Source: Enchytraeus crypticus
Lineage: Eukaryota > Annelida > Clitellata > Enchytraeida > Enchytraeidae
Direction: 5' to 3'
Length of the DNA: 64,000 nt
Assembly (NCBI GenBank): GCA_905160935.1
Contig: CAJHZI010000818.1
Span: 2,072,001-2,136,000 of the forward strand
Shown here: positions 2,991-56,559 of the stretch, in pieces
Numbering within the stretch: position 1 is the first letter of the stretch
Layout of the letters: the number at the start of each line of letters is the position of its first letter
Translations under genes and position numbers: made by a program
The notes under the pieces: generated by a model
The model's database searches: none
Seen by the model: the letters and a program-made list of their open reading frames with translations, nothing else
What the model was told of the DNA's origin: nothing

Positions 2991-5900
2991 ATGGATAAAT
3001 CTATTAATAGTCTTGGTTGCGTTGAGGAGGGGCATGGAGGAACCCACTCCGACTGTTCTTCTGAGCGGTCGGGTGGCAGTACTCCATGTGCCCGCGATCA
3101 TGCCCGGGTTGATACCGTTGACTCCCCAGGAAGTCTTGTTTGTGCGGAAGGCGTCCGCAGCGACCGCGTCGTGTCGCCCCCTGGTCAGGGCCTGCGTGCA
3201 GGTGTGGGGCTGGTGAAGCCCGCGGGGAGAAGGAGCGCAATGGGGTTCATTCTGCGAGGCCGTGGCAGCGTGACGGACGTGGTGGGCACTGGACCAAGCC
3301 TGGTTCGCCCGCCCGTCCTCTTTGCCTCAAGGAGGCAAAGAGGACGGGCCCCTGCCTCCTTCCTCCTCACTCAGGCTCTCCTGCCGTTGAGCCCTCGATC
3401 CTCCTTCCCAGTCCGAGGAGGACTAGAGAGAAAGCGCTCTCATTTATCCACAGGGGTCGCGCCAGTGTGTATGATGATAGCTCTGCCCCTCAGGATACCA
3501 CCCCCGTCTGTCACCGTCTCCTGACCCCGGGGTGTCAGGAAGGTGCCGTTGAAGACCCACGTAGTCTCTCTGATGGAAAAGAAGCGCCTGTGTCTGACCG
3601 TTTCCCTGCAGATAAGTCTGAGAGCAGCACGTCTGCCACTGTACCACGTTCGCTGACTTCTTGTCACCTTTCACAGTCTCCCGCTGCCGCCACACGGTCG
3701 TCTGATGACGCTCATCTGTCTTCTGATAAAGCTGCCTCTTCATCGGTCTCTTCGCTGATATCACCCACCACGTTGTCCTGCATGTCTTCGACAGCTCCAG
3801 TCTTCGCTTCACTTGGATCCATTGACACATCTCCCAAGTCTAAGGAGGAAGCTGCTCAGAATGGCTGCTCAGCCAGCGGCGAGGCCCCACGTAAAGTCGA
3901 CCTGGCCTTCTTCGGTTCAGGTTGCCGAAAGGGCCTTTGGGTAAGGCGAAGAAGAGGAGGTCGAAGAGAAGGCGAGGAAAGAAGAGAGCGAAGAACTCTC
4001 CATCACACACGTCTGGATCTGATCTGTCTGAGATGGATATGTCACCCATGTCTGCTGACTGTACAGAGGAGAGCAGCACGTCTGCCGCTGTACTGGGAAA
4101 GTCGTGTTCTCAGACTTCTTTCCATCTTCCACAGACTTCTGCTGCCGTCACACTGTCGTCTGATAACAAGGTTCTGTCTTCTGATAAAGCTGCCTCTTTA
4201 TCGGCCTCTTCGCTGATTCCACCCACCGCGTTGTCCTGCATGTCTTCGACAGCTCCAGTCCTCGCATCACTTGGATCCATTGACACATCTCCCAAGTCTG
4301 AGGAGGAAGCTGCTCAGAGTGGCTGCTCAGCCAGCGGCGAGGCCCTGCGTAAAGTCGACCTGGGCATTCTTCGTTTCAGGTTGCCGAAAGGGCCTTTGGG
4401 TAAGGCGAAGAAGAGGAGGTCGAAGAGAAGGCGAGGAAAGAAGAGAGCGAAGAACTCTCCATCTCACACATCTGGATCTGATCTGTCTGAGATGGATATG
4501 TCACCCACGTCTGCTGACTGTACGGAGGAGTCGATGAGCTCACCAGTGCCTAACTTCTCATCTGACTGTCCCTCGTCCACTCTCTCTAGCATCGAGTCAG
4601 GTCACGTTGAGTGGTCTAACGAGGAAGGTTCCAGGAGCGGTACGGCCTCCAGTCTCTCGGTGCCTGACAATGTATTGTATTCCGTTCTATCGCAGTATGA
4701 GTCCTCAGACACTGACCCTGAGTCTGATTGGACGTGGACGGAAGGCGGATGTCCATGGACTCTTCGACTCAGTCCCATTCCATGATCCTGGACACTCCTA
4801 GCAGGGATTCAGCTGCAGGAGGTAATGACGTGAAAGAAGTTATAGCTCGGATGAACAGCGAAGAAACAATTATTGCGGATGCCAGTTTACCCGCTGCCGG
4901 ACCTTTACTAATCTTTCACCCAGTTAGGCTGGTGAGATCAGTTCCTGATAGTCTCAATACTGACGATGATGCCTACGACACATTACCACTGGATTCCAGC
5001 TCAGACTCTGATGACTCGGAACCCAGCGACTCAGAACTCAGCCGACGTATCGAATCCAGACTACCGTCTCTCGTACCAGTGATGACCGGTAGCGCCATCT
5101 CACTGAACGGATACCTGCAGAAGGTTAAGCAGAAAGCGCGCATAATAACTGTCGGAAAGAAAATTTTACTGAAAAAGTTCAAGAGATTTGTGAAAGGATT
5201 TTCGTCTAAGGTTAGTCCACTGGAAAGCGAGGAATCTTCTGAAGTGGATCAGCAGCAGTCGCTCGGCTCTCTTCCATCACACCGCCGCCACGAAAACACA
5301 TCGAAGAAAATCTCTCGACCCAGCTCTGCACCGCTTTGCAGAAAACTCTCGGACGAGTTTGAGGACGAGGAGGGAGAGTACGAGTCCTCAGTGTGTACCG
5401 ACTCTTCACTCACTTCTGGGGTGTACAACATAAACCCGTGCGAAGATCCGGATGAGGAATACCAGTGCCCTGATGACTGGGATGCAGAGTCGGGCTCTGA
5501 GCCAGCTGTCGAAGATAACGAGGACTATGAGGACGAGGAGGCTGATCACCTGGCGTGCTTGAGGCCTCGACCAGTGAGTAGGAGGAGAAGACTTGACCCA
5601 CATAGAGGGGATTATCGTGCTGAAATGAGGGTGTACAGAGAGTTCACTAATGCTTATGGTCCACTTGATTTCATAGAGGAGGAGGAAGGGGAAGTGGAGG
5701 AACACATAGAGTCTTTATCTGAACTCCCACCTCTGAACCCTATGACATCTGACCTCTCACCTCTGAACCCTACGAGCAGCTCTGGAGGAACAGCTCCTCT
5801 CTTGGCCTGGGCTGAGTCAGTGCTCGGCTCCTCTGAGGTGGACACTCAGCAGGTGGAAAGCACGATGAACGATCAGTCCTTTCCTTTCTGGAATTGGTTC

Positions 5901-9600: not shown

Positions 9601-12600
9601 ATGAATTTGTGATGCTGTGCAGGATTGAATTTATTTGAATGTCATTTCTAGTGTATAATATGATATTAATATGATATTGTAATATAGTTTACGATATGAT
9701 CTAATTGTGTATTAATGAACTTTGTTAGGATATTATGTATAATATCTGATATTATCATCTAATTTACTATAAATTGTGCTAAATTCCTAATATAGTTCCG
9801 AATTAGCCAGCTAATTGTTGCATTTACTAAATTGGAGCATTATTTGTGCAAGTTGAATAAATGCATACCTATCAGGTATGACCTCGAGTGTAAATGATTT
9901 CATAGAAATGTGCGGGCAGACGCTAAATGAAGCTGTTGAGGAAGTGATCAAATATTTTTGCTGATATTTCTGTTCAGAAATATTTGTTTTGACTATCTAA
10001 ATGCATTATATAACCACAACAAATAGATTGCTACTGTCGTCTACAACATCATGGAGCACAATCAATTTTGAACTAATGATTCTTCTTATTATTGAATTCA
10101 ACTTCTCTCTCATGATTTATAATTATTTATAATTTTATTTATAATTATTTGCTATTTGATTTATTAATTATTTTATTGGATAAGATTTTTTTTTTTTTTT
10201 TTTTTATATGCTGAACGAATTTTATATTGATATGCTAATCTAAAACCATAGTGTCAACCTTTCAGCGTACATCTCTTGTATTTTGTTTGAGGAGACGACA
10301 AACGTTCAGTGTCTAGTCTATTTATTTCTAATGTTTGTTCAGTTGTAGCACAAGCATGATCATGTGAAAATCATTGAGGAGTCCATGCCATTGTTATTGA
10401 ATTCTTCTAGGGAAAGGCGTCATTGATTGCACTTAGCAGAAATATTAATGATATTAGTTAAAGTATGCTTTACCATACAATTGGAAGTGAAACTGGACAT
10501 GGAGTTAAATTAAAATGTTAAATGCTTTACTGACATTCTGAACATAATTGTGAAGTCTTTTGCTTATATAGTCTTTGTACTTATGTAGTCATTCTACTTA
10601 TATAGTTTTGTGCTTATGTAGTCTTTTGCATATATAGTCATCCTACTTATGTAATCTTTCTACTTATGTCGTTTTTTGCTTACGTTGTCTTTCTACTTAA
10701 GCAGTTTTTTGGTTATGTAGTCTTTCAACTTATAATGATGTTTTTTTGCTTATGTAGTATTTCTACTTATATAGTCTTTTGCTTATGCAATCTTTCTGTT
10801 TATGTAGTTTTTTGCTCTACTTCTAAACAATAAGCAAGTTCTACTGATTAATTCTAAACCCTAGATATATATTTGATAATACGTATTACTTATGATAATA
10901 GCTGTGATATGAATATAACTATGATCAATTTGTAATTTGATTGTGATTATGACTCCGAATGTCAGATGAATCACAGCTCTGGTCATAGAAACCTCTGAAC
11001 ACTTAAATTTATCTGTTACGTTTTGTTTCTAGTCTGTGTCATGATCAACTACTGTCATTATTATACTCTCTGTCTCTCTCTCTCTCTCTCTCTTTCTCTT
11101 TCTTTGTGTACTGCCCGTTGGCAGGTCCTTACCATATAACTCCTCATATTTCTATTCTCTGCTTTTCTATTAGTATCAAAATAGGAATTAGTTATCAAGT
11201 GATCCAGCATGCAAAGTCTCGTTCATCCTCTAACATTTTTTCCTTCCATTCTTCCTTTAATTACCTCTTTTAGTAAACCATTTCCTCTCAGTGCAGGACC
11301 TGTTCATTTCTTCTTTCTGTTCCTTATGCTATTTATCATTATTTTATTATACTGTCAACTTTATTTCTGTGCTTACTTCGTTCATAAAATAGACAAGATA
11401 GTAAGTAGACTATAATGTAAAGATTTGATTGTCAAGCGCCTCTGATAGGGCCCAAGTTATTTATCAACTTAGCATTTAGAGAACTTGTCGATTTTTATAA
11501 GTGAATGTTGAAGAATTTTATAACTCGAAAGAAATAAGTTAAAAATCTACAATTTTTGTAATTTTAATCTGTTCTTGAACAAGTCCCGATTTAAATTTGA
11601 ATGTGAAGAAGATCCTGTTAGTAGACGTAGTCTCATAGATTTATCAGCATTAGGACTGACATACTGGGTGAACTACAACAACATCTATGTGGAGGCGTGA
11701 CCACATGTGATTGATGTGTCAGTATCACGTACTAACACCTTGGGTGAACAACAACAACATCCTGTGAGGAGGCGTGGCCTCATAGGATAGACTGTCAGCA
11801 TCACGACTGACCTGGGCGAACAACAACAACAACTCTGAGTCATCGTTCTATTGAATATGCGTTGTATTGAGTTATGTTGATTTGTATTGTATAATGGTTT
11901 TATTTTATTATATGGTATTGTATGTGTTTTGCATTAAGTTTAGTATTGCTTTTCACTGCAATAATTTGTATTGCATTGTGTGCACTTGTATTGTGCAGCG
12001 TGTGGTTAGTATTGAGATTGTATTCTGTGTATTTGTATGGCATCATATTGTATTGATCAGCGTCTGCTTTTTATTGAGTTTTATTGTATTAGGTTGCATT
12101 TTACATAGTACTTTATATTGAGTTGTGTTGTGCTAATTAACCTACATTAAAGTCTAAGTTGTTGACTTTTTCACTTTTACTTCGCAGGTTTTAATGTATA
12201 TAAAACAGGAACTGAGAAAGACTATTTTTCTCAAGATATCGGCCTCATAAAGGTCAAGGTCATTAAACATAGCTTTTAGTGTAGGAATTAACTTGTTCAT
12301 TTAGGCATGCTTTTTAAAAAGCGTTAAAGACCTGTGAATAAGAATATATATACCGTGGACCTACCATGTGTCTGAGCACTAAAGAGAAATACTAATTGAA
12401 TGTCTGGGTTTGTTTCCTGTTTACTAAACAGTCGACTGTCGGCACTTGAAGCTTCCTTGTTACAAGTTCTCCCGTCTCAGCATTCCCTTCCGTCTTCCTC
12501 TAGTGACGACCCTGTACCGTCATCATCGTCTTCTAGCGACGAGCTGCCTTCTCGCCATCATCTCCCAGTTCCTCCGTCTAGCGTCGAATGCGGGCAGGTC

Positions 12601-14988
12601 GCCCCTGAGGTCTGTCCTGACCAGGTCAAGTCTGACGAGATTGAGAAGTGCGAGGTGGAGAAGTGCGAGGTTGACAAGTGCGAGGTTGAGAAGTGTGAGG
12701 TTGATTGTCCAGCTCTCGTCTCCGCATCGATGACGTCTCGACCTTTTGATAAGACAAAGAAGAAGCTGAAGTTCTGGAGTGGGTCGAAGAAGAAGGCCAG
12801 TGTGACCCTTGAAGCCGCTGCAGAGCCGGCCGAGGCAGCCGTGCCCGCTCTGCCGCAGGTTTCGTCGTCCGCCATGCCTCGCATCTCGTCGCCTACTGCC
12901 TCTCAGCCGTCCTTCTTCAGTAAACTCTCTACCGGTCTACAGCTCGTAAAGATACGGTTAACTAGTCGCCATAAAGTTGGTTGTATGCCAGTCGAGGAGA
13001 CTGATCACGTGACCTCTGGAGCCCATGTAGCAGTAGGGACTGAGCCTGAGGAGCCGCGGAGCTCCCCACCTGACAGCGGTGAGTCCTCGACGTATGACAG
13101 CGGGCTATCATCTGATAATCCTGGAATCTCGCCTGATAGCAGCGGGAAAGCAGCTAGTAATCCTGGAATCTCGCCTGATAGCAGCGGGAAAGCAGCTAGT
13201 AATCCTGGAATCTCGCCTGATAGCAGCGGGAACGCAGCCAGTAGTCCTGGAACCTCGCCTGATAGCAGCGGGAAATCAGCTAGTAGTCCTGAAACCTCGC
13301 CTGATAGCAGCGGGAAAGCAGCTAGTAGTCCTGGAATCTCGCCTGATAGCAGCGGTGTATCATCTGATTATCTTGGAACCTCGGCTCATGTCACTGAGAA
13401 AGCAGCTGATAAGAATTGGACACAAGCTGATAAGAGTTGGACACAAGCTGATAAGAGTGGGACACAAGCTGATAACGTTGGGAACTTAGCGGATGTCTGT
13501 GAGATGTCAAAGGATAACAGAGGGATGTCCTCGGATCACTGTGTAGGGCCCGCAGATAATGCTGGACAACCAGCGGATAATAGTGAGATGTCGACCGGGA
13601 GCCAATTCCTCGCTGAATTCGAGGCTCGGTTAAGGACCCTGGAGGCTCAGAAACTAGCAAAGACAACTTCACCCCAGCCTAAAGTCATACTAGTCAGGCC
13701 TAAGATGATCTTAAGCGAAGTGGAGCAGAGTTCAAACGACGATATGTTGGAGTTCAACACCGGGACAGTCATCAGAAGGAGGAAGCCAGTGATCTCCGAG
13801 GCAGTGTGTGCGATGTCAACGGATGACAGTGGAATGGCCACATATCACTGTGTAGCACCTGCAGATAATAGTGGACAACCAGCGGATAGTGAGGTGTCGA
13901 CCGGGAGCCAATTCCTCGCTGAATTCGAGGCGCGGTTAAGGACCCTGGAGGCTCAGAAACTAGCAAAGACAACTTCACCCCAGCCTAAAGTCATACTAGT
14001 CAGGTCTAAGATGATCTCTCTGGAAGAGGAGCAGAATTCGAACGACGATATGTTGGAATTCGACATAGGGACAGACATCGGAAAGAGTAAACCAGTGATC
14101 TCAGAGGCTGGAACACAGTCTACTAACATGTTCACATCTGGTTCAGCTTTGAGTGAATCGAGTGAGTCGCTAGACAGCAGAGTGACCAATCCACTCAAGA
14201 CCTTCATCTGGGCCTCTATCGCTGATCTCTCTCCTCGATCCCGGCCCTCTGAAGCCTATCGACTGGCTCGCTTCCCCTCGGGCTCTGAGGAGAAATCTCT
14301 AGGTAGGGAAGAACTGACTGAGTCCGATCAGGAAGGGGACACGATGTTCTCCGCCAGGCTGAATTATTTTGAAGACAGAAACTCTACATCCAAACCCCGA
14401 GACGCCCTGCGTCGATCTGGATCCCCATCGCTCAACAGAGAATTCATCTCATCAAGGCGATCATCCTCGAGTATTTGCAGTAGATCTCGGGTGCCCACCG
14501 CTAAGGTATCTGAGCGGGATCCGGTATTCAGCTCTCAATCATCGTCTGCCCAAGTCTCTACTGAGACGCTGAATGAGACAGGGGTCAAGGTAAAAGAAAG
14601 GTGGTGGTTCGTAGGAGCATCCCCTAGTATTGCTGGTAGATCTCGGGTGCCCTTCGCTAAGTTATCTGAGCGGGGAACGGTATTCAGCGCTCGATCATCG
14701 TCTAGCCAAGTCTCTACTGAGAGGCTTAATAATACAGGAGTCAAGGCAAAAGAAAGAGAGAGGTTTGACGGATCACCCTCGAGTATTGCCGGTAGATCTC
14801 GGGTGCCCACCGCTAAGGTATCTGAGCAGGGCCCGGTATTCAGCTCTCGATCATCGTCTGCCCATGTCTCTAATGAGACGCTGAATGATACAGGAGTCAA
14901 GGCAAGAGAAAGAGAGTGGTTTGACGGAAAAGAGCGTATCTCATACAACGATAAGATGAAGTCAGAGTTGTCCAGACGAAAGAAGTGA
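2991..14988 (+). CDS. Serine-rich repetitive protein gene (four-exon model)
   Basis: I do not recognise this protein. The model joins four exons: about 2991-6697, 7279-7554, 8382-8552 and 12432-14988. Every junction leaves two bases before the intron and one after it, so the frame is kept throughout. Donors are AG|GTATTT, TG|GTTAGA and TG|GTGAGT; acceptors are ATCCAG, TTTACAG and AAACAG. The product would be long, serine- and acid-rich and mostly disordered, with basic coiled-coil-like patches around the middle exons and tandem peptide repeats at both ends. AATAAA signals follow the stop at 15048 and 15116. The first exon has apparent frame breaks, so this is either a decayed gene or one with base-level sequence errors. 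The start codon is uncertain. There are no introns inside the 2.6-kb last exon. No function is proposed. Confidence 0.55.
3311..3349. repeat. Perfect 18-bp inverted repeat in exon A
   Basis: Bases 3311-3328 are exactly complementary to 3332-3349, with a 3-base AAG loop. Such a long perfect GC-rich hairpin inside an apparent coding exon is unusual. It lies in the area where the coding frame first changes. Confidence 0.9.
3612..4540 (+). repeat. Tandem 458/459-bp duplication in exon A
   Basis: Two adjacent copies of about 459 bp encode the same Ser-rich peptide followed by a basic Lys/Arg cluster (KKRRSKRRRGKKRAKNSP). The offset is 458 up to the GTCGACCTGG block and 459 from GTTGCCGAAAG onward. 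Copy 1 therefore lacks one base between 3900 and 3921, which is exactly where the reading frame breaks. Confidence 0.85.
6840..7128 (+). repeat. 30-bp minisatellite, about 9 units
   Basis: Repeated TCAATGAATAGGATCAATCA-type units of 30 bp, ending TCAGTTAAA. The period is a multiple of three, so a false open frame results. The array lies in the predicted intron between exons A and B. Confidence 0.9.
7128..7256 (+). repeat. TATGT-rich simple repeat
   Basis: Degenerate TATGTTATGTTGTGTTATG sequence directly follows the 30-bp array, still within the predicted intron. Confidence 0.8.
7279..7554 (+). CDS. Exon B of serine-rich gene
   Basis: A pyrimidine-rich acceptor (TTGTTTTACAATCCAG) precedes an open stretch starting one base into a codon. 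The peptide is Ser/Thr/Ala-rich, with a repeated ATDTTPTSSAP-like block, then SHVQVASLEKQSVPNG and NDDQPRLN. It resembles the composition of exons A and D. The proposed donor TG|GTTAGA leaves two bases, matching the phase of both neighbours; it is weaker than consensus. Length is 276 nt (1 + 91 codons + 2). If unspliced, the frame would stop about 34 bases later. Confidence 0.5.
8382..8552 (+). CDS. Exon C of serine-rich gene, Lys/Glu-rich helix
   Basis: A 171-nt exon bounded by a good acceptor (CATTGTTTACAG) and a consensus donor (TG|GTGAGT) in AT-rich surroundings. Its only sensible frame encodes EKEMDKLLTKKEKLKER, then an AQLEGWIEGRGVSAVRKFW segment and a His/Lys-rich end. This is an amphipathic helix or coiled coil by pattern. 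It begins one base into a codon and ends two bases into one, so it could be skipped without shifting the frame. No family recognised. Confidence 0.6.
8826..9395 (-). repeat. 81-bp minisatellite (false 258-codon frame)
   Basis: About seven tandem 81-bp units, the central ones nearly identical. Because 81 is divisible by three, the minus strand has a continuous open frame encoding SFSYNLNQNKSVNKLLFVNN-type 27-residue repeats. Flanking non-repeat codons show no protein character, and the array lies in a predicted intron. I treat it as a repeat, not a gene. Confidence 0.75.
9440..10550. other. AT-rich predicted intron sequence
   Basis: Nothing recognisable apart from a run of T near 10187-10205. 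It lies inside the predicted 3.9-kb intron between exons C and D. Confidence 0.4.
10555..10830 (+). repeat. Degenerate TTATGTAGTCTTTCTAC repeat
   Basis: Repeated variants of CTTATGTAGTCTTTCTACTT with drift in unit length. Intronic by the gene model. Confidence 0.75.
11060..11420 (-). mobile_element. LINE 3' fragment, minus strand
   Basis: A CT microsatellite leads into TGTACTGCCCGTTGGCAGG, and then sequence matching the 43.26-43.6 kb fragment (TTCCTTCCATTCTTCC, CCTCTTTTAGTAAACCATT). On the minus strand this is the C-terminal coding end and GA-rich 3' tail of a non-LTR retrotransposon. It lies in the intron before exon D, antisense to that gene. Confidence 0.6.
11625..11840 (+). repeat. About 75-bp tandem repeat, 3 units
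   Basis: Three units share a GACTGACCTGGGCGAACAAC-like core followed by ACAACA runs and GAGGCGTGGCC. They are diverged from each other. Confidence 0.65.
12432..14988 (+). CDS. Exon D (last exon) of serine-rich gene
   Basis: A strong acceptor (GTTTCCTGTTTACTAAACAG) opens a 2,557-nt uninterrupted exon to the TGA at 14986-14988, about 851 residues. An ATG at 12400 in frame lies before the acceptor, so the intact reading could also start there. The protein is Ser-rich and low-complexity: poly-Ser near the start, an EKCEVEKCEVDKCEVEKCEV repeat, a basic patch (KTKKKLKFWSGSKKKAS), 14-residue SPDSSGKAASNPGI repeats, a 102-residue duplication carrying SQFLAEFEARLRTLEAQKLA (helix), and three 52-residue repeats starting RSRVP. 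It ends RISYNDKMKSELSRRKK. No catalytic motif or membrane segment. Perhaps a cytoskeletal, extracellular or scaffold protein, but this is a guess. Confidence 0.7.
13118..13345 (+). repeat. 42-bp coding repeat in exon D
   Basis: Five to six units of 42 bp encode a 14-residue SPDSSGKAASNPGI-like repeat. Most differences between units are single bases, suggesting recent expansion. Confidence 0.9.
13534..14105 (+). repeat. 306-bp coding duplication in exon D
   Basis: The block beginning ACCGGGAGCCAATTCCTCGC at 13594 recurs at 13900, an offset of 306 bp (102 codons). The encoded helix SQFLAEFEARLRTLEAQKLA is identical in both copies while the flanks differ. Confidence 0.9.
14481..14930 (+). repeat. 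156-bp coding repeat, three units
   Basis: TAGATCTCGGGTGCCC starts at 14481, 14637 and 14793, a period of 156 bp (52 codons). Each unit encodes RSRVPTAKVSE, a Ser-rich stretch, then LNDTGVKAKERE. Confidence 0.9.
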
Positions 14989-19939: not shown

Positions 19940-20740
19940 TTGTTCCTTCATGATGCACTTCACACTCCATCACCTCTTCATTTTGCGCTCCTACTCCAAA
20001 TCAAAAGTCAAACCATGAATCAGTTCCTTAATAAAGATCCTAAACATATTTCTCAATCCTTCGTTTCTTAAACCACCTATTTCAACATTTCAACTTCATT
20101 ACTTCATATTCCCTCCAAATAGCTGCCATGTATATCTATTTCTCCTCATTTACTTTTTCGTTTATTCGTTTAATCATTTATAATTTTATTTTTTAGAATG
20201 TGTTTAAATATACTGCAATTACTTTACCACTTAACTTGATTTCGCTGCCGCACTACCCGCGCTAAATTACTAAATTTATTGTTTTTTTAAACTTTTTTTA
20301 CATTATTTGCTGTTAAGTACCTGTACATGCACAACTGGTTTGCCACTATTTACTAGCAACTGCTTTTACAAATGCTACATATAACTACTAAGTCTTTACT
20401 CCGGCTAATATACCATTATTGATGCCAGAGTAATCCTGATATTGTGACCGTCGCAGGAATAATGTTCCTTTCGTAGCAGAAAAAGGTGGAAAAATTACAC
20501 AAATAGTTTTAAAAAATAACTTAAAACAATATAGAAAATCCACTGCATAAAAGTTTTTAAAGCGTTACCTAATATAAATCCAACAGTCATTATTTAATAA
20601 ACATCACCGTAATCGTCTACTTTATAAACATTACTGTAATCGTTTTTTGCAACATCGATTTCTATCTAAACCAACTATCTCAGAATTTATCAACTTCTAA
20701 TTATATTCAATTAAATTTTACCTAGTTCAACTTTTTTTAC
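19940..20740. other. AT-rich DNA, nothing seen
   Basis: No exon, RNA or clear repeat recognised. Confidence 0.4.
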
Positions 20741-22079
20741 ATTTTTAATTTTTTCGATATCGTTCAATTATTTCAGGTAAGAAGACTCATCCACTTTTAT
20801 CTGTTATAGTTGAATGAACTTTTTTTAGTCAAAATTTAAAAAAAAAATTTTTTCAATAAAATGTTTAATTAATTTTAAAATTAATTTTTAAATATGACGT
20901 TCATTTATTTCATATAAAAGAGCATATTCCCTCTTCTATATGCAATATTTGAACCAATATTTATTAATTTTAAAATTTTTTTCTTGGAGGAAGTGGTGCC
21001 GGTATGGGGATGGTGGAGCCGTGCATATAATTTTTTTTGTTAATTTTGCAAAATTTATGACTATATTTGGATTAATTTTTACTACATTATTTCAATTAAA
21101 ATTAATTCTAGCCTAATCATAAGTTATAGCCTAAAAATAATTTTTTGAAATCTACATTCTGAGATAGTGGTCCGACAATCATTTTTTCTAAACATCATTA
21201 TAATCGTTTATTTTGCAACAACTTTATATATCAAATCCAACTATCCATAACTTATCAGCAGCATATATTATATTCAATTAAAATTTACCTAGTTTGACAT
21301 ATTTCTTTTTTCACTTTTTTGATATCGTTCAATTATTTCAGGTAACAAGACTCATCCACTTTTATCTGTTATAGTTGAATGAATTTTTTTAGTCAAAATT
21401 TCAAAACAGCATTTTTTTAAATTATTTGTTTGATAATTTGTTTAATTATTTTTTAAAATTTGATATTCATTTATTTCATATAAAAGAGAATGTTCACTCT
21501 TCTATATGCAATAGTTGAATCAATATTTATTCATTTTTAATTTTTTTCTTTTTTTCTTGGAGGAAGTGGTGCCGGTATGGGGATGGTGGAGCCGTGCATA
21601 TAAATTTTTTTGTTAATTTTGAAAAATTTATGCATATATTTTGATTAAATTTTACATCTTTATTTCAATAAAAACTAATTATAGCCTAATCATTAATTAT
21701 ATTATAGCCTTCAAATAATTTTTTAAAATATCTAAATTCTGAGATAGTTGGCCAAAAGTATATTCTAGATATTTCTATGGGTACAAATACATGCAAACGA
21801 ATGTACCGAACGCTGGTCCGAATACTCGAGATCTTTACGTTCGAAAGTGCCGCTGACATATAGTAGAGCGTGAAGCCACGGGTAATCGACCTTTGCAGAG
21901 ACAAATGTGACACTTACAAGTTTAGGCCTGTCAGTGGAATCGATTCGACCTGCTTCATTTTTTAAGAGAAGACCAAGATAAGCAATCGACTGAGGGACTG
22001 CTCAGACCAGTAGAGTAAACTGGTCCTGCACGAAATTAAGAGGCATAGGATACTCATGATACGACATCTACAAAGAACA

Positions 22080-22235
22080 GACTCAAGGTTTCTGCTTTGC
22101 AGTCTGAAGTTGAGAGGTCTGACGCCTGCTTTGGTCTCCGAGCATGTCAGCGACGGGGCGAGTACTGGATTTGAGCCCAGCACCTACTGATCCGCAGTCT
22201 GATACCTTGCCTATATGCTGCCGGCTCAATCTAAG
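22080..22235 (-). mobile_element. tRNA-like SINE fragment
   Basis: GGATTTGAGCCCAGCACC (B-box complement) with GATCCGCAGTCTGATACCTTG and CCGGCTCAAT resembles family 1 tRNA-like SINEs read on the minus strand. Related short pieces occur near 32.13, 32.48 and 58.66 kb. Confidence 0.45.
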
Positions 22236-22304
22236 GGCTGAAAGATTGACCTCTCAAAACAGCTAAACTCTCTATACGCTCAGATATATTTAATTTAAAT
22301 CACT

Positions 22305-22465
22305 ATTATTTTGAATCAATCAAGCAAATCACTTATATTAAATCTGTCAAACAAATCACTTATATTAAATCCATCAAACAAGTCACTTATATTAAATCCA
22401 TCAAACAAATCACTTAAATGGAATCCATCAAACATATCACTTTTATATCGAATCCATCAAACGCT
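22305..22465 (+). repeat. 28-bp tandem repeat, about 5 units
   Basis: Units of CATCAAACAAATCACTTATAT followed by TAAATC. Confidence 0.8.
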
Positions 22466-23777
22466 ACAAATTTATCAGCCTATTTAACTCCAAGGATATT
22501 ATTATTTTGACAAAATATTAAATATAACTTATTTAAAATGAAAGTATTTAATTTTCAGATTCTAATTCTGCTATCTAAAAATATACCAAAATTTATAAGC
22601 AAATTTTATCTATAGTTTTTTCTATTTAAGTCTCTTCTTTCTTTCATTTTTTATTCATTCAATTATCTCAAATAAACGACTCATCCACTTTTATTTATCT
22701 CTGATAGTTGAATGAAATTTTTTACCTCTTATGCAAATATTTTGAATTAAAAAACATTTCAAACATAATTTAAAATTCAATTCATTCATTTATTTCATAT
22801 TAAAGAGCTCTTTAGTTTTTTATATGCAATAGATGAATGAATCTTTTTTATTATTTAAAATTTATTTAAATTATTTGGAGGAAGTGGCACCAGTATGGGG
22901 ACGGAGGAGCCGGTCTAGAAATATTTATATTTGATTAAATTTCAGCTTTTTTAAATTTTACTTTTAATTATTCTTAGCTAAAAATCATTTTCACAAATTT
23001 TTATTCAAATCAAAATTGATCTTTCTAGGAGAATATTCTAACAATACTGTGTTCTACATTACGATTTGTATGCTAAACTAGCAATGCACTAAAATATTAT
23101 TCGTCTTCATACACTGTAGAAAATTAAACAGAGAAAAAGCTATTTGACTGCTTTAACCATGTTCTACAGCGGCTTACATTTGTAGTTCTACCGCACTTAA
23201 TTTTCGGAACTCTGCAGTTCTCATTGACCTTATAGATATTTAGCGATGCGGCTAAATAAAGCATTGAACTTTCGGAGAATGAGTCTACACTCTACACCTA
23301 AGCAATGCTGAAATAATTGCTGAAGGTTTTCTACCGAAATTCGCCGATTTTCTGCGAGTGCTAGCGCGTAACGTAAACCCTATCGCGTGTGATATCGCAG
23401 CCTCTGGGATGTTATTTGGTGCAGACTATATTTCTGATCGGCGTATTTTTTCATTGCTGCATTGAGCAATGACTGTGTAGCTACTGTGTAGCTATGATTG
23501 ACTTTTGAGTATGAGTTCAACTGTGTCTGATGGGCGATTACTGGGTTGTGGCACAATTTATTGCCACAAAGAGCTTTATATACTATATCTACTACATCTA
23601 TATTACATAATTATTATTGTAAGCTGGGAATGATTAGTTTGTGACGTAAGGTAATTGTTTGATTTCTTAACGAGCGGATAAGAGAAAAGTTATCTACCAT
23701 TCGTACCTATACGTCTAATGAGAAAGTAAAGCGAGCATGTAAGAGAGAGAAATTTTGGAAAATGTTTGCTAAGAGGA

Positions 23778-24017
23778 CATCATGAGATGACTGCCTCGAT
23801 TAATGAGCCATGCAGTCATCTCATAATGAGAAAATTAATGAGATAATTAAATGAGATAACTTTGTAAAACTCATTATGAGATGACTGCCTCGATTAATGA
23901 GCCATGCAGTCATCTCATAATGAGATAATTAATGAGATAATTAAATGAGATAACTTCGTTAAACTCATAAGATGAGGGCCTCGTTTCATGAATTATGCAG
24001 TCATCTCATATTATGAG
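23778..24017. repeat. Palindromic hairpin repeats, copies 1-3
   Basis: Copy 2 has arms 23871-23888 and 23906-23923 that are perfectly complementary over 18 bp, around a 17-base loop reading CTCGATTAATGAGCCAT. Copy 1 (about 23780-23830) has a small imperfection in the outer arm, and copy 3 (about 23959-24017) is degenerate. Between them run degenerate ATGAGATAATTAA units. Confidence 0.9.
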
Positions 24018-24067
24018 CGAAATTTTCACATTAAGAGATCATTATGAGCTAATTATGAGAGAATCCC

Positions 24068-24145
24068 AGGGTGTTGGAAGGTTACTCTTAAATCCGTGCC
24101 GGCTGCAATTGATGCGCCATCAAAAGGCAACGATTACTGCTGTGC
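24068..24145 (+). mobile_element. 5'-truncated copy of 5S-type SINE tail
   Basis: CCCAGGGTGTTGGAAGGTTA and GCCGGCTGCAATTGATGCGC match the tail of the tRNA/5S chimeric SINE at 52.86-53.07 kb. The 5S-like head is absent, so this is a truncated copy inserted within the hairpin-repeat cluster. Confidence 0.75.
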
Positions 24146-24553
24146 TAGTGAACTTAATTCTCAGCTGACGGTGTGGTTTTTATCATTAAATGAACCAGTT
24201 GTGAGGTTATACTGCCTCGAATCTCCCTCTCTCCTTAACGTTCTGCAGATGGCTGACCCAAGGTACATATTCCTATTTGCAATCGACTGTCAAACTCCAA
24301 AAAAGCACTCCTTCGATCAACAGGTTAATTCCGTCGCAAAAGGCGGATTTGTCAAAATTAATCTTGAGCTTGAAGAGTTTGGTTTTGAGGTGGTTTCCTT
24401 TGATTTCCTTAGTTCGTGCTTATTATGCCTCTTACGACACATGCAGTTTACCTTGCTATTGACCTAAGTGAACTAATTCTGAGTTAATGGTCTGGCGTGA
24501 GGTTTTTATAAGATAATTCGTCTTGGTTTCAGTAAGAGATGATTGCTTTATAT

Positions 24554-24555
<2 letters not shown>

Positions 24556-24613
<58 letters not shown>

Positions 24614-24740
24614 CTATATATATATATATATATTTTATATATATATATATATATTTTATATATATAGAGATTATTTATTATATATATATTATATATTACA
24701 TATATTATATATATATATTTATATCTTATATATTTATAGA
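24556..24740. repeat. TA microsatellite
   Basis: Long (TA)n, partly interrupted, interrupting the hairpin-repeat cluster. Confidence 0.95.
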
Positions 24741-25220
24741 TGATTGATCGTTTAATGAGCAATGCAGTCTTCTCTTAATGAGGTAACTAATTATGAGTTA
24801 GCTTAGAGCCCATTCTGAGATGACTGCCTCGTTTAATGAGGTAATTAAATTATTATTCTTGCTGGTTGCCTAATGGAGCTCATTATGATATGCTTATTAA
24901 GCTAGTAGGCTAATCACTCGGCCACCGGGCGGTGTAAGACCTGTGTGTAAGATTTAGGATGATTTTGCCGCTAGACATGTTGCTTTAGTGAACAAATAAC
25001 GAGATGGATATCTGCTAATAGCCTAAGCTAAACAAATAAATTTTAAATAACGATATATTTGTTTAATAGCTCATTATGAGATGACTGCCTCGTTTAATGA
25101 GCCATGCAGTCATCTCATAATGAGCTAATTAATTAATAAATTGATTAATTATGAGAGCTTAGAGGTCATTATGAGATGATTGCCTCGTTTAATGAGCCAT
25201 GCAATCATCTCATAATGAGT
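24740..25220. repeat. Palindromic hairpin repeats, copies 4-5 and partials
   Basis: Copy 4: arms 25067-25088 and 25106-25127 (22 bp perfect). Copy 5: arms 25166-25183 and 25201-25218 (18 bp perfect). Copy 5 has GATTGC/GCAATC where the others have GACTGC/GCAGTC, a paired change that keeps the helix. Half or decayed copies lie near 24738-24790 and 24807-24850. Confidence 0.9.
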
Positions 25221-25229
25221 TAAATTCGT

Positions 25230-25920
25230 TGATTGGGAGATAATTACGAGATAATTGTGAGATAATTACGAGATAATAATGGGATAATTATGAAATAATT
25301 ATGAGATAATTGCAAGATAATTTTGAGATGACTGGGTTTACTTGTGATTCATTGGATCAGGTGTGCCACTTTTTCGTGCATCTCGCTATTTATCACCGTC
25401 AGTGATTTAGCTTTCGTCCGTTTTTACGGTTATCAATGACTTCGCGTGGTTTGAGATTCTATATTATTTGACTTGAATGTAATTTTAAGATTTTCAGTGA
25501 TTTGGAGTCAGTTTTAGATTGTCAGTGACTTATCTCTGATGTGGTTTGAAGATTTCAGTTTAATGGTTTCCAGATTATGAGATTAGCAGTGATGTAGGAC
25601 TACTTTTTCGGACTCTAATATGGCTTTGTATTAAGGCCTTACACAATATATTTTATTTTAGTCTTTCCCGTGTCCTAGTTGAAAATCAAAACTCTTACAA
25701 TTTGAAAAGCTTTTAGAACCTGCAATGAAATAAATATCATTTTTGTTAAAATGCACCGTGTGGAAGTGTGCTAAAAGTTCTAAAAAATAAAATACCAAAA
25801 ATTGAAAATTAAAAAACAATTAAAAAAATAAAAAATAAAATGGAGTAGAAAAATATAAAGAGATAAAATCTAACTAAATGTAACTATCCTAAAAATAAAT
25901 AAATAACATACAATGCTCTG
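25230..25920. other. AT-rich DNA, GAGATAATTA repeats then unique
   Basis: Degenerate GAGATAATTA repeats run to about 25330. The remainder has no recognised feature. Confidence 0.4.
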
Positions 25921-25924
25921 ATCA

Positions 25925-26035
25925 GCGCGGCCGAGAATCGAACCCAAAAGAGTTATATTTAGCCTACCTTAGGATCGAAAATTTAAAATATAACGACGAT
26001 ACCTGTCACCATTAACCACTATGCTATTGAGACAT
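25925..26035 (-). mobile_element. tRNA-derived SINE, family 2
   Basis: Read on the minus strand: an A-box-like TAGCATAGTGGTTAATGG, a B box GGTTCGATTCT, and TCGGCCGCGCTGATC after it. About 40 extra bases separate the boxes. A related plus-strand copy lies near 57.11-57.24 kb. Confidence 0.6.
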
Positions 26036-27376: not shown

Positions 27377-29704
27377 ACAGGGTACTCAACAAGTACGCGA
27401 CTCGGATTTTCGTTCAGAATGTGTCCGATTAAAATCTCTGACAGCGAAATTGTGCACAACCTTTGACTTAACCTTTAGACTATGGTTCCAATATTTACAT
27501 ATTGGAATATAGTCTTGAGTAAAACATTTAACTAATTACTTGCCAAATGTAGTCATAAAGTGTATTTTTAAGTTAGAGCATTGACGTACTTGACAATATT
27601 GTTGTTGTCGACTCGTAAGTTCAATCGTGATACCGACTTCCTCATCTCCAATGTCCATGGATATAATCAGGATGGGAAAACTTCCAACAGCTACCACTTC
27701 CGGAGTCTATTCCACTGAGTGTGTGACTGCTGACTGATTAAGTCTGTAAAGTGCAAGAAGTGTTTGACATTGCATGTTGACAGAATCTTCTTTTAAAATT
27801 TTCTAAGTTATCATTTTTCTCGGCGTTTCAATTAATGCTGGCTGATCTTTTTGCAAAGCCGAAAATAGGCAGTTTTCGTTACTTTAGCTTCATCATTTCA
27901 CTTGCTTAGTCCTAGTTCGTATTGGTGTTATTTAACAATCGATGTGTTCAGTTATATTTAGAATCGTTGCCGGAGATTGGTTTGATTGGGGGGGGGGGGG
28001 GGTGTTAAGGGGTGTAAATTTTTTCTCTAAATAAAATTGGGGACTTTCATACAACAATTTTCTGAACTAGACAATCCTGTAAATTTTTTCTAATTAGCTT
28101 TCGTTATCCCAAGTGACCTCTAAAATATTTATTTAAGGGCGGGGGAGGATAAAAAAATTTGCACTTGCCCTTTTCGACGATCCTGAATTAGTTAAGTTTG
28201 GAAGATTGTGTTTTCAATAAGTGGTCGCATCTTACGAACGAAGCAAAGTTATAAAAAAATCAATCAATAAATCAGTAGGAATCTAGCGTTCAGTTCCTCG
28301 CCATTAGGCAATGTCATCTATCATGTCATCTACAAAAATATAATCTTCCAAACTTAAAAGCTGAATGCAGCATTTAAAATTGTTAAACAACATATTTACC
28401 AATAGGAGCTAAGCCAGTGCACTCGAAGAAGCTACGAAACGCCAATTTTGGCTGTTTTTGGTATACGTGCAAAGATCAATGGGTACTAATTTGAAACAAA
28501 CCAAAGATGATAATTTTGAAAATTGAGATCTGTTGACATGGAATGTTTTTGTTATTAGTTGTTTTTCTCATCGGCTCATGCATCATTTGGGGGGGGGGGG
28601 GGGGGGTTCTATCGGAAAATATCTTATATTTGAATAAAGGACTAATTTCAGAGCTTCTGGCACTTAAATACACACACTAGTCGCTTCTTACGATCATGGT
28701 TTTCGATAGGTCCAAGGAAAAATTTCTGAAAAATTAAAAATCTTCATATTGCAAAATACAGATTTTCTATTTTATTAGTTTATTGCTTACTTACTTTTCC
28801 TAATCCTCCTTGAACTAAAAAAGTTAGTTATTAATCCAATGGGTTCTTAGCAGCCATTTAGTTTAATTTCCTGACTATTTCAACCACAGGGCATTTCACG
28901 CAGTATCATAAAGCTTATCAGATTTTGAGCGTGTACAGTGGGTTTAACTTCTTTTTCTTCCTCTTTTATTCAATTGACCTCCTCGACTTGTTCCTGGTTC
29001 ATCTTGTTTTGTCACTGATAGGCTCTTCGGCATCAAAACTGCCCTTCTACTAAAAATCTTGTGGAAACTGTCCAAGTAGAACTGATAAATAATATCTAAT
29101 TCATTAGAGCATCAGTAATATAGCTAAGCAGTCCATACTTCAAGTTATGTGCAATGTATGATTAGTATTAGCCAGTAAATTTCATTAATATCTAATATTA
29201 TATGAAATTATATTACACTTTTAGTTATACTAATTATATTAAAATTATATCTATCCAATATTGTATTAAATTAGAATAAAATAGTTTTATTTATGATATT
29301 GACAGGATTAATATCATATTAAATATATTCAATTATATAAAATAGTGCTATTTTAAATGGTATTATTTGAATGTAATTAATATTGTATTAGAATAATAGT
29401 AAAATCTCATTTCTGTTTAACGGCAGATCCATGGCATTTAACTTGACTTGGGAATCGTTAATTCTTGTCTTGGTGTCTTCGTTAGTCGACTCCTACGTAT
29501 CACTTGCAGTTATAATTTCTAATATAACGTGTTTGTCATATTATATGAATGTAGTATGTGATTATTATAAATTAGTTGGAATATATAATTAATATAATAT
29601 AATATAATATAATAATCTAACATAATATGTTATAATGTAATGTAATATAATATAACTTAATTTAATATAGTTAAATAATTATATATAATTTAATAATATA
29701 TACA

Positions 29705-29748
<44 letters not shown>

Positions 29749-30168
29749 TCAGCCGTATCTAATCTTTATCTATATAATAAACACAACACTTCTTGCACTT
29801 TACGCACTTAATCGCTCAGCACTCACCTACTCAGTGGATTGGACTCGGGGAGACTATAGCTGTTGGAAGTCCTTCCAATCCTGATCATATCCAAGGACAC
29901 AGGAGATGAGAAAATCAGTATCACGATTGATCTTATGAGTTGACAGCAACAACACTGTCAGCGTAAATTAATGCTATAACTTAAAATGCTTTTAATGATA
30001 ACATTTAGCATGTAACTGGAGTTATAGGTTTTAGTACAAGACTATTGCTTAAATATTGGAACCATAGTCTACAGGTTAAGTCATATGATGGGCGCCATTT
30101 CGCTGCTAGAGACTCTACTCTGGCTCATTCTGTACGCAAATCAGACTCGTGTACCTATGTGGTACAGT
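27377..30168. mobile_element. 2.8-kb element with about 390-bp inverted ends
   Basis: The left arm (about 27377-27765) is the imperfect reverse complement of the right arm (about 29784-30168). Matching landmarks include TGGTTCCAATATTTA vs its complement near 30050, GTCCATGGATATAATCAGGA vs TCCTGATCATATCCAAGGAC, and GTGCAAGAAGTGTT vs AACACTTCTTGCAC. The 2-kb interior has no open frame and includes poly-G runs near 27991 and 28590 and a TA run near 29710. Most likely a non-autonomous DNA transposon. The target-site duplication is not clear, and the arms have diverged, so it is old. Confidence 0.75.
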
Positions 30169-43044: not shown

Positions 43045-43175
43045 CAGTTAAAAAAGCTAATGTTAACGTCAGTTTCATCACTCGAAAGCGATGTCAGTGA
43101 CGGGCCAGCCCAGGATTTGAACTCCGCACATACTGATCCGAGGTCGAGTATCTTACCGACATCGCCACCGGCTCC
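43045..43175 (-). mobile_element. tRNA-derived SINE, family 1
   Basis: Minus-strand copy of the 1.92-kb SINE: TCGAAAGCGATGTCAGTGAC, then AGGATTTGAACTCCGCACA (B box complement) and CCGAGGTCGAGTATCTTACC (A box region). Confidence 0.8.
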
Positions 43176-43254
43176 AGTTGTGACATTATTTATCCGGGAA
43201 ATTGCATTTGAGAAGCTATATATTATCTACATTTACATAGTACTCATATGGGTA

Positions 43255-43791: not shown

Positions 43792-56559
<12,768 letters not shown>

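Follow-up and report, generated by a model that had tools for sequence, protein, structure and literature searches.

The hairpins in the window (the whole stretch of DNA analysed, 64,000 nucleotides, C717:2072001-2136000) are remnants of a 91-95 bp tandem repeat, in which the palindrome has diverged much less than the spacers between its copies, a difference that recurs among paralogous loci and suggests that something preserves the palindrome. This is a clear case in which paired substitutions would mislead, and in which it is the contrast between hairpin and spacer in a tandem unit, followed across paralogues, that suggests a preserved palindrome. It makes testable the question of whether such a hairpin is kept by selection on RNA or by palindrome-focused repair alone.

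Hairpin copies in the window and in the genome

Seven copies of the stem-loop are present at 23774-25221; the stem is perfect in three, has one core mismatch in a fourth and is degraded in a fifth, and the other two copies are broken. These copies and the parts of the array between them are:

23774..23832, plus strand: hairpin c1, one mismatch in the 17-bp core stem (71.8 bits; folding z -4.5)
23833..23867, plus strand: spacer from c1 to c2, in a 94-bp repeat unit
23868..23926, plus strand: hairpin c2, perfect 19-bp stem (86.5 bits; z -8.7)
23960..24018, plus strand: hairpin c3, degraded (32.9 bits; folding z -1.96)
24529..24545, plus strand: left arm of c4, carrying GATTG
24546..24737, strand not assigned: TA-rich insert of 192 bp splitting c4, with AGATGATTG on both sides
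24738..24785, plus strand: rest of c4, loop and right arm GCAGTC (match 24728-24784, 30 bits)
24807..24845, plus strand: c5, left arm and loop only (match 24807-24859, 19.2 bits, E 0.47)
25068..25126, plus strand: hairpin c6, perfect 21-bp stem, matching the 59-nt consensus exactly (93.6 bits; z -11.3)
25127..25162, plus strand: spacer from c6 to c7, in a 95-bp repeat unit
25163..25221, plus strand: hairpin c7, perfect 18-bp stem with the paired change GATTGC/GCAATC (z -7.7)

A preliminary description of this DNA had reported at least five hairpins within 1.4 kb, which can be equated with c1, c2, c3, c6 and c7; the perfect stems that it gave for its copies 2, 4 and 5 correspond to those of c2, c6 and c7, its shared loop CTCGNTTAATGAGCCAT recurs exactly in c1, c2, c6 and c7, and its GATTGC/GCAATC arm pair is indeed found in c7. 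The palindrome of its 53-base unit is likewise real, but forms only the hairpin part of a longer tandem repeat, with spacings of 94, 91 and 95 in the window. The stem-loop occupies the first 51-59 nt of the 91-95 bp unit that is the true repeat, and the spacers between the window hairpins are about 35-40 bp long. A 17-base arm pattern allowing up to 3 mismatches matches at 11 places when both arms are counted, where chance would give 0.12. The hairpin combines a 21-bp stem, a 5-bp apical helix and a 4-nt bulge; the fold of c6 (59 nt, -38.2 kcal/mol) is a stable hairpin of the size, about 60-80 nt, that characterizes a tandem microRNA cluster.

Several other features of the array were observed. 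The insert in c4 together with the flanking AGATGATTG (9 bp on each side; span 24537-24746) resembles an insertion with a target-site duplication. Directly after the last hairpin lies an 11-bp array (GAGATAATTAT) at 25237-25329, which has the word GAGATAATTA in common with the c1-c3 spacers. On the minus strand the c6 loop contains ATGGCTCATTAAA (25089-25105), a word that may correspond to a piece of conserved animal 18S rRNA. Tandem repeats are very dense over the entire window (1-64000), with 111 Tandem Repeats Finder rows, some of them overlapping.

In the genome (524 Mb, 802 contigs), a COX1 gene on a 15-kb contig can be translated through without stops under the invertebrate mitochondrial code, and the DNA is accordingly taken to come from an invertebrate animal. 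A search of this genome with a 26-base pattern and up to 3 mismatches, which would miss more diverged copies on other contigs, recovered 94 matches, all on the seven contigs C189, C246, C621, C706, C717, C774 and C785; the reversed pattern, searched genome-wide in the same way as a control, gave 0 matches, and viral contigs contained 0 exact matches to the 26-base pattern. In the sequence fetched from these seven contigs there are 97 copies with up to 16 substitutions, 70 of them with 0-2; matching by substitutions misses copies bearing indels, and a profile search by bit score adds a few. Pair counts, arm and loop rates, spacing, unit divergence and strand counts are based on the 91 copies with up to 7 substitutions, and between-locus divergence and the edge profile on the 93 with up to 9, C189 being left out of both of the latter. 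The 76 distinct sequences gave 73 aligned ones, three with broken ends being set aside. The units are arranged head to tail, as in a minisatellite: 44 of the 84 gaps between successive hairpins measure 84-96 bp, and 32 of those 44 are 91 or 92 bp. Some hairpins are instead spaced about 420-460 bp apart in a higher-order repeat, and the piece between them looks tRNA-derived; a piece at 25918-25948 on the minus strand of the window is presumably tRNA-like by its motif. Among the arm-pattern places listed (part of 171), one lies outside the seven contigs, on C571, and is a half-site without the hairpin.

This distribution bears on the proposal, made in the preliminary description, of a tiny foldback transposon, to which the terminal inverted repeats and short size of the unit would be suited. 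The copies occur in tandem, and the 26-base pattern places them on no more than seven contigs in 524 Mb, rather than as the dispersed copies with target-site duplications that typify foldback elements and MITEs, and a clean hairpin-sized insertion was not found in the alignment of C621 and C785, the one pair aligned base by base; such an origin is hardly credible. The other options of that description, namely a structured RNA, a protein-binding palindrome and hairpin-driven amplification, stay in play.

Divergence of hairpins, spacers and flanks

The loci on C246, C621, C706, C774 and C785 are colinear with one another. In C785 and C706 the shared block extends over at least about 43 kb; its right edge is seen there, and its left edge lies beyond the fetched sequence. 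Between 20.7 and about 39.8 kb the window is colinear with them in islands whose identity to the other loci is mostly about 68-76%, and going by its sequence it is an older member among the six paralogous loci. The colinear islands flanking the array are:

20665..22944, plus strand: upstream islands, mostly 68-76% identical to the paralogous loci, with one piece at 72-85%
27566..29960, plus strand: downstream islands, about 67-75% identical to the paralogous loci

Two of these islands (27599-27761 and 29788-29960) form an inverted pair about 2 kb apart, with inverted counterparts also in the paralogous loci, and a dispersed repeat of about 110-130 bp is found at 43053-43177 and in similar places in the fetched loci.

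When 44 complete units are compared with the consensus, the hairpin differs at 80 of 2244 positions (3.6%) and the spacer at 299 of 1742 (17.2%), a 4.8-fold difference. In 41 between-locus alignments, where non-orthologous copies may be paired, hairpin columns differ at 293 of 4927 (5.9%) and all other columns at 3541 of 22872 (15.5%), a ratio of 0.38 (bootstrap 0.31-0.47); both comparisons are anchored on recognisable hairpins and biased toward low hairpin divergence. By locus pair the hairpins diverge by 4.6-7.2% and the flanks by 6.6-31%, the two pairs containing the window resting on 109 and 126 flank columns, the latter of which give the 31% value. The edge of the palindrome is a step, from 0.062-0.076 in the outermost inside blocks to 0.194 in the first 4 nt outside, and not the even decay along the unit to be expected of a minisatellite. 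Within the palindrome, arms (3.8%) and loop (3.5%) are alike in the 91 copies, without the greater conservation of arms over loop typical of a microRNA cluster. Hairpin identity is 0.932 within loci and 0.931 between them, and pairwise hairpin distance reaches a plateau at about 7% while spacer distance climbs from 0.1 to 0.6; given the anchoring and possible non-orthologous pairing, this plateau describes the hairpin pool. In the window, c6 equals the consensus despite the low identity of the surrounding islands.

The contrast does not extend to every flank. In the closest pair, C621-C785, with a hairpin to flank ratio of 0.75, the columns 401-2000 nt from a hairpin differ at 33 of 1596 (2.1%), less than the hairpins (4.9%), so that hairpins are not exceptional against all flanking DNA; in C774-C706 the equivalent columns differ at 127 of 1232 (10.3%), more than the hairpins (6.8%). 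The maintenance thus shows at longer divergence, when hairpins are set against spacers and near flanks, and does not hold against every flank of the youngest pair. The conserved hairpin of the preliminary description holds in this form, the palindrome with its loop being less diverged than the spacers and most of the flank; the argument from paired substitutions that went with it does not (see below).

The far flank of the closest pair is what might be expected of an ordinary minisatellite that contains a palindrome by chance, undergoes normal array turnover only and has fast-changing low-complexity DNA as its spacers, as are the 91-92 bp period, the higher-order repeats and the very repeat-rich window. 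However, turnover should even out the divergence of spacer and hairpin, and the 4.8-fold difference from the consensus is the reverse of this. Moreover, identity between hairpins is about 93%, as against 73-87% for a 338-bp stretch of the higher-order repeat outside the hairpins in its 12 other listed copies, and c6 has kept the consensus in the oldest locus. This makes an ordinary minisatellite decidedly improbable.

A more serious alternative, though still a somewhat unlikely one, is a functionless palindrome whose cruciforms break and are repaired from other hairpins by very short tracts, such that hairpins are homogenised while spacers drift. The equal identity within and between loci, the equal conservation of arms and loop and the flat hairpin distance are all in keeping with it, as is a 519-bp stretch by which the array of C621 differs from that of C785 and which has its breakpoints within hairpins. 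On the other hand, the step at the palindrome edge lacks the gradient that such repair should leave, and equal mixing among contigs would be required. Further, variant hairpins (A25C plus C31T, in 51-nt numbering), judged by eye, seem to stand at matching array ends of C706 and C774; as these loci share them at 12.5% flank divergence, any resetting is not fast. Recombination between hairpins together with duplication of whole loci can account for the copy numbers.

Paired substitutions in the stem

In the 91 copies, with 17 stem pairs each, 1434 of the 1547 cells have the consensus pair. One-sided changes account for 108 cells, 42 of which leave a wobble and 66 of which break the pair, and both sides are changed in five (two Watson-Crick, two wobble, one broken), against 2.3 expected by independence; two of these five are one and the same substitution. 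The full set of 97 copies has three Watson-Crick double changes, each of one single pair, two of them at the pair quoted in the preliminary description (in c7 and in a degraded C706 copy). That description had regarded its change from GACTGC/GCAGTC to GATTGC/GCAATC as compensatory. Single-step intermediates exist on both sides: three C774 copies and the left arm of c4 have C-to-T alone, and the C189 copy has G-to-A alone; therefore two ordinary steps suffice for this pair.

The same change had been offered as a sign of selection on the helix, with a covariation score across copies as the proposed check and the lack of an excess of paired substitutions as part of what would speak against it. 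No clear excess is found among the copies of the family: in the 73 distinct sequences the number of double-changed cells is reached by 58 of 500 shuffles, the covariation score by 56, and the four measures by pair, cell, type and covariation each by between 39 and 58, so that to this extent the proposal is contradicted. The percentage of paired cells is slightly above that of the shuffles (92.3 vs 91.7; 3/500), and the structure surpasses versions of itself slid along the alignment in both covariation score and cells paired, a control that favours the structure, which was drawn from the consensus. The covariation that would mark a structured RNA family is not apparent, and the paired substitutions are not clear evidence for selection on the helix.

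The linked gene family and comparison with known systems

Upstream of the array the window has a long ORF:

12400..14985, plus strand: long ORF, with related ORFs at the five other paralogous loci

It is probably an exon of a linked gene family, whose related ORF lies on the hairpin strand about 9-12 kb upstream of the first copy at all six paralogous loci. The relative on C246 has one in-frame stop, though hairpins are present there. A further copy of the ORF, on C705, has several stops, and no family hairpin was found near it by the genome-wide pattern search or in a 2.9-kb stretch that was read, this stretch being without clear colinear homology and possibly the wrong place. An unrelated palindrome with arms of about 16 bp and a 16-nt loop was seen near this broken copy (L043:1810-1857). 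The ORF at 12400-14985 is built of in-frame tandem repeats with periods of 15, 42, 21, 306 and 156 bp, all multiples of 3. Pfam searches recovered no family above cut-off in the three ORFs of this kind scanned, and, when 83 of the 113 ORFs listed for C621 and C774 were scanned, five single weak matches, the best of which, Atrophin-1 (5.9e-05), was taken for low complexity. The 71 window ORFs scanned (of 84 among 91 found) gave a carboxylesterase, a reverse transcriptase and three weak matches, and those that were located are away from the array: a reverse-transcriptase fragment (RVT_1, E 1.4e-15) is at 50012-50956 and two carboxylesterase exon-like ORFs are at 54777-56129 on the minus strand.

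The association with the ORF, along with dyad symmetry and conservation over the whole length, could reflect a DNA element, namely a protein-binding palindrome whose array would serve the gene family as a group of enhancer, boundary or silencer sites. Dimer sites are mostly shorter than this, and a conserved 17-nt loop between arms of 17-21 bp exceeds most of them; in addition, the sole place outside the seven contigs among the listed arm matches, that on C571, is devoid of the hairpin. A DNA element accordingly appears rather improbable.

We tentatively prefer, over the repair of hairpins from one another, a reading in which the arrays act as RNA hairpins made on the strand of the gene, like tandem intronic microRNA clusters; in doing so we infer that the arrays are transcribed, that RNA is the molecule that acts and that selection is responsible, as well as any processing or target. 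It is supported by the low divergence of the hairpins relative to spacers and most flank, by the step at the edge of the palindrome and by the consensus sequence of c6 in the diverged window, and further by the related ORF on the same strand at all six loci, by the strong fold of c6 (z -11.3) and by the several-stop copy on C705, near which the pattern search and the 2.9 kb read showed no family hairpin. Among non-redundant stem changes, 32 preserve a G-U pair on the strand of the gene and 16 belong to the mirror class (p 0.03); the corresponding counts in the apical helix are 4 and 0. This wobble bias is not clearly above a spacer control of 30:30 (Fisher p 0.05-0.12), and becomes 16:10 (p 0.33) when each change is counted once genome-wide; the bias is a hint, and mutation with a strand bias in transcribed DNA would produce the same picture. 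Counted against RNA hairpins are the far flank of the closest pair, less diverged than its hairpins, the choice of units by recognisable hairpins, the stop in the C246 ORF, the lack of a clear covariation excess and a loop as conserved as the arms; in microRNA precursors the loop is less conserved than the arms. The array might also be situated beyond the transcript. A comparison with Rfam recovered 0 families at the gathering threshold, and permissive matches were mostly to microRNA families, far below their cut-offs. The best of them, MIR807 (36.5 bits against a cut-off of 113), was rejected.

Under the RNA-hairpin reading, the arrays would lie in the transcription unit of the gene, in a long intron or the 3' region, and a double-strand-binding protein might attach to the resulting row of hairpins in the RNA, or an RNase III enzyme might cleave it. 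Copies would multiply by hairpin-to-hairpin recombination and whole-locus duplication, and decayed hairpins would be lost or selected against. In a more specific and unlikely form, this might be a lineage-specific hairpin RNA family, not in Rfam, with arrays of up to tens of copies from one fast-changing gene family, and with a protein or processing enzyme dedicated to it that recognises the entire hairpin, from the stem through the apical helix to the loop.

In the titles and abstract openings listed for work on hpRNA, quasipalindromes, palindromic satellites and hairpins in tandem or in minisatellites, the hairpin repeat is not described, although analogues are found; a 13-nt string of the arm occurs in one listed paper, on Marek's disease virus. 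Palindromic satellite and minisatellite DNAs share with the present arrays head-to-tail units (here of 91-92 bp) and recombination between units, but here conservation is centred on the palindrome and the arrays are few and gene-linked. Drosophila hpRNAs feed endogenous RNAi and have longer stems directed at a target gene. Their loci, as outlined in such abstract openings, are similar in being inverted repeats able to yield double-stranded RNA; they differ from the present case in that the stem here is of 21 bp, with no convincing target among the arm matches listed. Template-switch (quasipalindrome) correction, according to the portion of PMC8794818 available, can change both arms of a hairpin in one mutational event and would be comparable in altering the arms together, but here there are only three Watson-Crick doubles in 97 copies, all of single pairs, and one-step intermediates for the quoted pair.

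The closest published arrangement found appears to be the mouse Sfmbt2 intron-10 microRNA cluster C2MC, which, in the part of its description available (PMC3212979), lies in a single mouse gene, with a related array in rat, and is built of 296-nt units whose pre-miRNAs, about 83 nt long, overlap microsatellites. By that account it resembles the present family in that its tandem units carry hairpins, follow the coding strand of a gene, form higher-order repeats, contain SINE pieces and are confined to the locus. The differences are that the present family, known from DNA alone, has a near-perfect stem-loop of 51-59 nt, six paralogous loci and a loop conserved as the arms are. If these arrays do act as RNA, they would form a gene-linked hairpin cluster that has probably arisen apart from the known microRNA clusters.
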